DNA of 64,000 nt from Tribonema minus. Its lineage: Eukaryota > Sar > Xanthophyceae > Tribonematales > Tribonemataceae. The notes under the pieces are model-generated. The model was not told the origin of the DNA, did no database searches, and was given only the letters and a program-made list of their open reading frames with translations. Position numbers and translations under genes: made by a program. Below, piece after piece: positions 10,361 through 25,936 of the stretch (positions are counted from its first letter, which is position 1; every line of letters begins with the position of its first letter). The stretch is from NCBI GenBank assembly GCA_017506865.1, contig JAFCMP010000127.1, positions 1-64,000 on the forward strand. Direction: 5' to 3'.

Positions 10361-13300
10361 CTACCGGAATAGGACGGACGCCATGGCGCGCAGGCCGTAG
10401 ACGCCGCGCACCTCGGCGTCAAACATGGGCACGCGCGTGAGCGCGATGCCGCTGTCGCGCGCTAGCGCCTCCAGCTGCCGCACCCCCTTCGCCTGCCCCT
10501 TGGTGAGGCGCTGCACGTAGCCCTCGCTCGTCTCCGCGGTGATGACCTTGTTGATCTGCGCGCGGGGGGGCAGGTGGCAGAGGGGGGGGGTTTTAGCAGC
10601 ACGCCGGCAGAGGCGTCAGCAGGGCGTTGCAGCAGTGCTCAGAGTACATCTTGAAGCCAGATGCTGCCATCTATTTGTAAACAAATGTACTACTAATGCC
10701 ATTTGGCGGCGGCGGCATTTGAGTGGTTGTCGTTGCGACACTTTCAGACTGTCATACGACATGTAGATTCCTTACAGCTAGATGCCAATCATCTGGGCTT
10801 TTTCGCGCCCTGAGCGAGAATTAATAAAAAGTACTACTTCTAAGAGCTTTTCAAAGTATGAAAGTCTGTGAGCCGCACAACTACACGCACGCAACAACAG
10901 GCACAGTGTGACGGGGGGGGGGGGGGGGGGGCAAAGACGGCGGGGGTCATTCGCACTGGGGGCAGCCAAGGGGGAGGGGGGGGGGCAGAGAGACTCACCA
11001 CCATGTGCTCTACAGGGACCTCCTGTTCCCGCAGCTGGCGCACAAGGCGCTCGCTCTCTGCGACGGCGAGCATGGAGGGTATCGTCACCACCACAAACTC
11101 GCTGCGCTCCTGGTCGCGGAAGAGCTCCTGCAGCTCCATCATCTTGAACTGGAAGTCGCGCAGGCGGTCCCTGCGGCAGCGCTCAGGCGGAGGGGTAGCT
11201 GTATCAGTGTTGATCTGCACGGTTTGTACTGCCAAGTACCACTTTTAGATGCACGCATCATCACAAGTGCAGTGTGTCTGCGGGAGCGTCAATGAAGAAG
11301 CTGCCTGCGTGCAAGCTGTGGCCACGACTTCTGACGGTCGCTGCGCTGTTGGCCAACGAGCAGCCCACAGTGCACCACGGCACAGACCTGCAGTATTGAT
11401 TTATAAATCAAAAACCTCGATCGACTTACGTTTAAGTTACTATAGCGTAGATGTCACTTGACTTGGGTGTGACAGAACATGAAGACAACACACATCGTGC
11501 CAGGCGAATGCCAGTGCATAGAACTACTTCGAAGTACAATCGTATTGTAGGGAGTACACAAGTGGATCATGGGGAGTCCATGTGGTGCTCACCTGTCCTC
11601 CTCTTCTGCAGCAGCATCCCCTGAAGACGAAGACGCCCCCGTGCCTTTGCCCAGACCCCCCAATACCCCCATCAGAGCGCTGGCGCCCTTGAACCTGAGG
11701 TTTTGATCGAAGCATTGCAGTTGAAGTTTCAGCGTCGCAGACACCTCCGTGACAAAACGTTGTCGGGTTGCATGTGTGATCGTGCACAGTACTTCAAAGT
11801 CCAAAACATGAGGACATGCTGTAGGAGTGCGGAGGCAGCTCAGGCAGTCGCAGTAGCAGCGCGAGAGCGCCAGCTGCCATGATACGCAAAAGCGCACGAC
11901 ACGTGCCAGTGGGCGCAACTTCAGACATATAAGTAGCAGCGCGAGAGCGCCAGCTGCTATGATACGCGAAAGCGCACGACATGTGCGCGTGGGCGCAACT
12001 TCAAGCATGTAAGCTGCCATGCCCCCGAGGTTTTGTGGCCTTGAAGGAAGCACAAGTCAAATGATACTCAGAGACTCGACATGTGTTGAACTTCAGAGTG
12101 AAGTGCCAGAAGTGCAAACTCATCAAGGACGCGCAGTGCGTGCTGCGGGTGCGCCCGAAGCAAACTTCAAGCCAGAAGAAGCGACGCACCTGCCCCGTAT
12201 CTTGATGATCTTCTCGAAGAACTCGTCGAGGAACTCGGGGTAGCTGAGCATGCGCAGCGTGTGCCCCGTGGGCGCCGTGTCGATGACGACGCGGTCAAAC
12301 TTGATGCCCTCCGCGTTCTCGCCGCGCACGAGTTTGAGAACCTGCGCGCGTCACGTTCATCATCAAGTACGGGTCCAACAACAGGAAGCAGAAAGAGTGG
12401 ATGATTAAGAACGAGTTTAATCAGAGGAAGCAAAGAAGATTGATGCTTTTGATCTTCTGTAAAAAAAATTGATGCCTCCAGCGTTCTCGCCGCGCACGCC
12501 TTTGAGCACCTGCGCGCGTCACGTTCACGTTGCCCATCAACAAAACGTTCAGCAAGAAAAAACAGGATGAGTGAAACATGGAAGGCCCTTTGCAACGGCG
12601 CATGAGCACGTGCGCAAAAGAACAACACGTGGCTAGGGTAGGTAAGCAGGCGGGGAGAGTAGCAGCAGCAGGCAGTTACAAAGTTGATGCCCTCCGCGTT
12701 CTCGCCGCGCATGAGTTTGAGCACCTGCACGTGAGATCATTTTGGTAGGCACGAGCAGAAACACAAGTTTGAGCACCTGCACGTAAAGTCATCAATACTG
12801 CTGCGCATAGCGCAAACCAGCAAGCGCGTCGTTAAATCGCAGCTGGCCAGCAAATGAGCCCATCGTGGAAAACGGCGCGGCGCTTGCACGGTGCCCCACG
12901 TCACAAGATATTGTATCCGTCTATGTCAACGGTGGGCTACACTGTATACAACATTATATCCATCTTCCATACACGACGCGCGCGCTCGCCACACCTTCCT
13001 CAGCGCGCAGATTAGCCCCCCCTGTGGGCACCTGCGCTGCACTTGCGAGGGGAAGCTACACAGATATGCGCAGCATACTTCCTCTAGTTCAACAGCGGCA
13101 GCACGGTACTCTGCACTGAAACAGATTTTGTCCCTTAAACTCAATGGTGGCTTACACTGTATGGAAGAACAACATCGCACCCATCTACTGCACTTCAACA
13201 ACAGCAGTGCTCGACACACCTTGCTCAGCGAGCATATAACCCCCCCGCCCCTAGTCACCGGGCTGCGCTTGCGAGGGGGGGCTACACAAGGTTACGCAGC

Positions 13301-25936: not shown

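Follow-up and report, generated by a model that had tools for sequence, protein, structure and literature searches.

Tandem arrays of partial exon-edge copies inside introns of Tribonema minus

INTRODUCTION

Intron length varies greatly among eukaryotes, and the source of the extra sequence is usually ascribed to transposons. The stretch of DNA analysed here (64,000 nucleotides, referred to below as the window) raises the question of whether introns can also grow out of the exons that flank them: within one of its genes, the introns repeatedly contain decayed sequences that resemble the edge of the adjacent exon. The window sits on one contig of a 158-Mb genome assembled in 554 contigs, which was searched for the same pattern.

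RESULTS

An ArsA/GET3B-like ATPase gene with 13 introns

The gene in question is modelled on the minus strand with 14 exons, 13 GT-AG introns, and a single open frame of 790 amino acids.

10361-25936, minus strand: ArsA/GET3B-like double ATPase gene (gene model and match to PDB 5zme)
25584-25936, 24292-24475, 21996-22100, 20847-21020, 20129-20248, 17730-17888, 16969-17106, minus strand: exons E1 to E7 (gene model)
15976-16113, 14552-14779, 13705-13857, 12190-12341, 11593-11694, 10999-11170, 10361-10555, minus strand: exons E8 to E14 (gene model)

The top PDB match of the protein is the ATPase ARSA1 (5zme; E = 2e-148), which spans both halves, and both halves bear the same sequence of 10 residues. 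Judged by eye, the N terminus looks like the signal and transit peptide of a secondary plastid, and the reading of a red secondary plastid is based on this N-terminal motif, again as judged by eye. The genome has abundant LHC-family matches (92), so the organism is photosynthetic. Two RuBisCO-large family matches also scored above the cut-off (L055 and L056, at C334:714136 and C112:516888), each with an in-frame stop. An Rfam search of the window gave no matches.

Copies of exon edges lie in the adjacent introns

The original prediction had placed about thirty exon-edge copies in at least 10 of the 13 introns. An exon-versus-intron blastn search (E <= 1e-3) recovered 32 copies lying in introns adjacent to the exon that they resemble, and these occupy introns I1 to I10 (10 of 13); at this threshold, exon-edge copies were absent from I11 to I13. 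Fourteen of the 26 exon edges are copied, and a 15th, the 5' edge of E10, appears on whole-unit alignment. As had been proposed, copies of 5' edges lie only upstream of their exon (17 copies) and copies of 3' edges only downstream (15 copies); all 32 are in the same strand as the exon and comply with this side rule. They sit inside the introns of a gene model that is colinear with ARSA1.

24562-24659, 24744-24842, 24935-24997, 25094-25200, minus strand: four copies of the E2 5' edge in I1 (blastn; unit alignment)
24124-24156, 23971-24003, 23753-23786, 23598-23630, 23319-23347, minus strand: five copies of the E2 3' edge in I2 (blastn)
near 23477, minus strand: additional weak copy of the E2 3' edge in I2 (windowed/unit alignment)
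21164-21193, 21310-21354, minus strand: two copies of the E4 5' edge in I3 (blastn)
20667-20755, minus strand: one copy of the E4 3' edge in I4 (blastn)
20011-20091, minus strand: one copy of the E5 3' edge in I5 (blastn)
17995-18054, 18158-18218, 18330-18392, minus strand: three copies of the E6 5' edge in I5 (blastn)
17373-17425, 17542-17577, minus strand: two copies of the E7 5' edge in I6 (blastn; shorter copy near 17274)
16815-16859, 16686-16732, minus strand: two copies of the E7 3' edge in I7 (blastn)
16237-16264, minus strand: one copy of the E8 5' edge in I7 (blastn)
15771-15824, minus strand: one copy of the E8 3' edge in I8 (blastn; weaker copy near 15546)
14871-14893, 15050-15077, 15215-15302, minus strand: three copies of the E9 5' edge in I8 (blastn; farthest copy 87/88 identical)
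14406-14472, 14304-14351, minus strand: two copies of the E9 3' edge in I9 (blastn)
13595-13648, 13488-13541, 13330-13383, minus strand: three copies of the E10 3' edge in I10 (blastn; TRF period, 107)
12465-12509, 12679-12724, minus strand: two copies of the E11 5' edge in I10 (blastn)
11852-12003, unstranded: intron-only tandem duplication in I11, 80-bp unit, no exon part found (TRF)

A looser search (E <= 0.01) returned 46 rows, 35 in own introns and 11 in other introns. The three additional own-intron rows comprise a weak copy of the E8 3' edge, a row for E10 beginning 24 bp inside the exon, and a row for E9 from the exon interior; the 11 rows in other introns, except for one minus-strand row, are attributed to the homology of the two ATPase halves. 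Within the gene, 46% of the intron sequence belongs to direct repeats separated by less than 1.5 kb. A whole-gene self-blast missed the 80-bp repeat of I11, and windowed queries were used instead.

The repeated units are contiguous segments that cross the splice junction

Units were compared with the nearest copy at 36 of 40 edges, the other four being left out since their nearest copy lay beyond 240 bp. At these 36 edges the spacing to the nearest copy is 97 to 233 bp; the original prediction had given intervals of about 100 to 220 bp. The intron halves of the nearest units beat shuffled sequences (z > 2) in 33 of 36 cases and in 29 to 31 of 36 under three gap settings. As the intron sides of the copies are thus homologous as well, contiguous segments of ~97 to 233 bp were duplicated, and not exon edges by themselves. 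Identity is 0.75 to 0.94 across the splice consensus at the junction and then drops to about 0.4 to 0.65 (ungapped). The shortest intron part within a unit is 37 bp; intron parts of at least this length, combined with partial exons, would fit a filter by splicing, with the inner site retaining its own intron signals.

If only the inner exon is constrained, a simple model predicts that the intron sides should have diverged twice as much as the exon sides. In symmetric 36-bp windows, divergence was 0.311 on the intron side and 0.098 on the exon side for copies found by the exon search (ratio, 3.2; n = 62), and 0.230 and 0.091 for copies found by both searches (ratio, 2.5; n = 22). The difference goes the predicted way and somewhat exceeds the predicted size. 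Simulation calibration puts the intron-half divergence near 0.30 to 0.36, and the divergences of the exon and intron halves are not correlated (rho = -0.24, P = 0.15). When copies were sought by their intron side, 22 of 44 had no similar exon side; the 22 copies missed by the exon search have an exon-side divergence of 0.354 and so may be without an exon part. A neat 2:1 clock (exon half, 0.084; intron half, 0.183) was dropped: the same aligner, with its cheap gaps, yields 0.207 for shuffled halves, so that these two values are no evidence.

Only the inner copy is under coding constraint

Substitutions were polarised in the arrays with at least two copies. On the side of the true exon there were 16 changes, of which 15 fell at codon position 3 and 15 were synonymous, whereas the changes private to a copy were spread 49:48:70 over codon positions 1, 2, and 3; another 24 changes were common to some of the copies. 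The third-position excess in the copies (P = 0.047) may come from the high GC content at third positions (0.85). Indels occur in the exon part of 17 of the 80 copies that touch placed edges, and they shift the frame in 15 of the 17. The polarised changes and the frameshifted indels together indicate that coding constraint acts on the inner exon only and that the copies, essentially free of it, evolve as dead DNA. GT or AG is retained in 67 of the 80 copies. The side rule, the polarised substitutions, and the homologous intron sides fit the proposal of tandem duplication straddling the splice junction with the innermost copy kept.

Order within the arrays and intron length

Copies had been expected to become shorter and more decayed with distance from the exon. 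Decay with distance is mild (exon identity declines by a net 25 among 72 pairs; P = 0.008), and shortening is not supported (P = 0.27). E9, E10, and E11 each have a nearer copy that matches the exon less well than a farther one; the E10 copies, for example, are identical at 46/54, 47/54, and 50/54 positions with increasing distance. A strict conveyor-belt order, in which the oldest copy is the farthest, is only weakly supported, with these three exceptions. Intron length, whose scaling with copy number the original prediction had suggested checking, rises with the number of copies (rho = 0.94 for the 13 ATPase introns; rho = 0.58, P = 5e-5, for 42 introns of other genes), a correlation that is supportive only, as longer introns also give more room for copies.

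The pattern in other genes of the genome

Similar repeats had been noted in a coiled-coil gene of the window, and all of them are present, with the exon edges placed by eye.

36743-36809 and 36890-36962, plus strand: repeat pair (67%), exon 3' edge and copy
39666-39929, plus strand: repeats 39666/39806 (86%) and 39771/39872 (80%), exon 3' edge and two downstream copies
43976-44122 and 44110-44258, plus strand: repeat pair (80%), exon 5' edge and upstream copy

Pfam searches of the same genome gave 56 matches to chaperonins (PF00118) and, with 122 of 191 candidates scored, at least 132 listed matches to kinesins (PF00225). Sixteen regions were analysed, namely, 13 that hold all 56 chaperonin matches and three kinesin regions picked for their many matched exons. 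Of 72 exon segments, 67 were kept and five were dropped for overlapping profile ranges; at least one of the five (L046) is possibly a real exon. The copy counts leave out hits that overlap exons. Refined edges scored poorly in L041, exon 5 of L045, and L054. Six Pfam segments contain an in-frame stop, probably where the match overruns the exon edge.

Adjacent copies were found for 33 of the 67 exon segments (L054 exon 5 included), and 99 of 102 same-strand copies follow the side rule. All three exceptions belong to L054 exon 5, the edge of which is badly placed. Taking the ATPase gene and the 16 regions together, 131 of 134 same-strand adjacent copies obey the rule, and there is one opposite-strand adjacent hit. 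Copies occur in 13 of the 16 regions and on 9 of the 10 sampled contigs besides that of the window. The search of adjacent pieces gave no exon-edge copies in three chaperonin regions (L041, L044, and L045), the placed introns of which are mostly among the shorter ones. The suggestion that the pattern is genome-wide therefore stands in part: it is widespread, though missing from some genes. Some copies surface as duplicated Pfam hits, such as those at C51:21979 and C51:22169, upstream of C51:22346.

The expected excess of exon-edge similarity within introns was clear in comparison with dinucleotide-shuffled sequences. The real sequences gave 136 hits in adjacent pieces (135 of them same-strand), 150 hits within own genes, and 113 hits across genes, whereas five shuffled rounds gave 0 to 1 own-gene hits and 4 to 13 hits in all per round.

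Simulations of uniform duplication

Families of edge copies were found at 46 of 110 tested edges and intron-only families numbered 20 in 55 introns. A simulation of uniform duplication starting from 200-bp ancestral introns came close to both counts, with edge families at a fraction of 0.43 and intron-only families at 0.36 per intron; it finishes at introns of 533 bp, and the tested introns average 892 bp. Simulated ancestral introns of 300 to 500 bp predict an excess of intron-only families. Derived changes are shared among copies in 17 of 132 cases (12 arrays), whereas the uniform model expects a fraction of 0.27 and a junction-anchored model 0.06; with matched resampling, sharing this low has a P of 0.009 to 0.014 under the uniform model. 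Low sharing would come equally from homogenisation by the exon.

DISCUSSION

Origin of the arrays

We consider it probable that small tandem duplications, arising often and sieved by selection for coding and splicing, built the arrays. In this genome such DNA duplications would occur at a high rate, and those at exon edges would mostly measure about 100 to 230 bp. Where a duplication crosses an exon-intron junction and includes enough of the intron, splicing could continue at the inner junction, which is the first 5' or the last 3' splice site; with the mRNA unchanged, the duplication would be tolerated. The outer exon-edge copy would then turn into intron and decay, and repeated rounds would leave arrays of dead exon edges and splice sites in a longer intron. 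Duplications within exons would be removed by selection. Purely intronic duplications would also arise and would disappear from view sooner because both of their copies drift, whereas an exon edge keeps a constrained reference. Exon definition may be the reason why the decoy sites are ignored. The duplication chemistry could be, for example, the repair of staggered breaks or nearby nicks; the small tandem duplications at staggered-end breaks described in PMC8355091 would offer a plausible origin for short, direct tandem copies, by analogy, as that work was done with mouse and human cells. The observations behind this explanation are the same-strand units with homologous intron sides, the side rule, the constraint on the inner copy, the presence of copies on 9 of 10 further contigs, and the correlation with intron length.

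A different source of the pattern would be duplication aimed at junctions, for instance, where nucleosome borders, transcription, or splicing create hotspots of breaks or nicks. New units would then start at exon edges much more frequently than within introns. The sharing of derived changes, which falls between the anchored and uniform expectations (P of about 0.01), speaks for such targeting, as do the fairly narrow unit sizes (36 units, 240-bp cut-off) and the small number of intron-only families. However, the uniform model with 200-bp ancestral introns fits the counts, intron-only duplications do occur (I11), old copy-of-copy events are difficult to detect, and the simulations are simple. 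Junction targeting is not required by the data; we regard it as unlikely, and the same holds for its stronger form, in which a junction-anchored engine copies segments of about one nucleosome repeat, with the exon edge as the master template, and is the main route of intron growth here. We give somewhat less credence still to the idea that the true exon homogenises its copies by gene conversion or unequal exchange, which would keep them similar and make many of them older than they appear. The exon sides are 2.5 to 3.2 times less diverged than the intron sides, more than the expected factor of 2, and the two sides are uncorrelated; some far copies are the most similar (the farthest E9 copy and the E10 series), and in some arrays the units have shared ends. 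Against this, an exon-based search favours conserved exon parts, copies recovered by both searches show a lower ratio, and the first unit at each edge still requires a duplication. Search bias accounts for part of the excess in the ratio, and exon-to-copy conversion may account for the rest. It is very improbable that selection maintains the copies as functional alternative exons or as regulatory splice sites. Most copies keep GT or AG and their exon sides are better conserved than their intron sides, but their private changes are nearly even over codon positions, indels mostly shift the frame, and the copies are partial and do not reach the far exon end; among 115 hits on exon segments of at least 150 bp, none spans 80% of the segment.

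Relation to known forms of intron evolution

The original prediction knew of no described system of this form. The literature search, which had most subscription papers outside its reach, likewise found no description of exon-edge arrays inside introns, although the type of event is known, as tandem genomic duplication. Gao and Lynch (2009), as cited in PMC4974935 and PMC3443670, reportedly dealt with internal gene duplication in eukaryotes, in which the segments hold exon and intron parts; by comparison, the present case is a dense series of partial exon-edge units inside introns.

Tandem genomic duplication is a known event type (PMC4974935, PMC3443670). Introns of that origin (also PMC2891723) share with the present arrays a short tandem genomic duplication that includes splice signals, and in the potato RdRp case (PMC4974935) the duplicated segment also straddles an intron-exon junction. 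Those cases yield a new intron or an inserted exon, whereas here an existing intron lengthens and the inner junction is kept; they also differ from the present families in that the latter occur at 46 of 110 tested edges. Figures for Drosophila lines cited in PMC2891723 (1901 mostly tandem duplications; median, 367 nt) suggest that small tandem duplications are common elsewhere too. The arrays resemble introners (PMC9860276) in that a process shapes introns genome-wide, but introners are dispersed elements, whereas each copy here stems from the exon next to it. The arrays do not consist of related copies scattered over unrelated genes, as introners would give: in the comparison of exons with introns, the 136 hits in adjacent pieces stand against 113 spread over all comparisons between genes. 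Introners may still occur elsewhere in the genome. We conclude that the arrays are real and widespread and are a new form of known tandem-duplication-driven intron evolution.

A large share of intron sequence becomes readable as tandem duplications, since the ancestral sequence of each unit survives in the constrained exon edge. The arrays are also a natural experiment on splice-site choice, with near-identical decoy 5' and 3' sites in their native exon context. If the gene model is right, the pair of sites used would be the outermost of each intron, as protein conservation suggests, with the decoys lying between them, and such decoy arrays would directly test exon definition. As some decoys appear as duplicated domain hits, gene-prediction pipelines should treat them with caution.

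Other repeats

A dispersed repeat lies at 10696-10835, in I13 of the ATPase gene, and in the opposite orientation at 36980-37100, in an intron of the coiled-coil gene. Scoring of 40 among 336 candidates gave at least 46 further matches in the genome, and identity is about 99% for the most part. One end is common and the other varies, which suggests that the repeat is a young transposable element. Within 35400-35619 a 100-bp block is perfectly repeated with a 20-bp spacer, a very young duplication with filler that is informative about mechanism. Direct repeats ~1.4 to 1.6 kb apart at 45890-50477 suggest a tandemly duplicated gene segment, and 1345-2526 is a tandem array of an 81-bp unit (TRF), by eye apparently an ankyrin-repeat gene. 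TRF also identified interstitial AACCCT/TTAGGG tracts at 18935-19014, 41405-41854, and 55373-55443, at least some of which are within introns.
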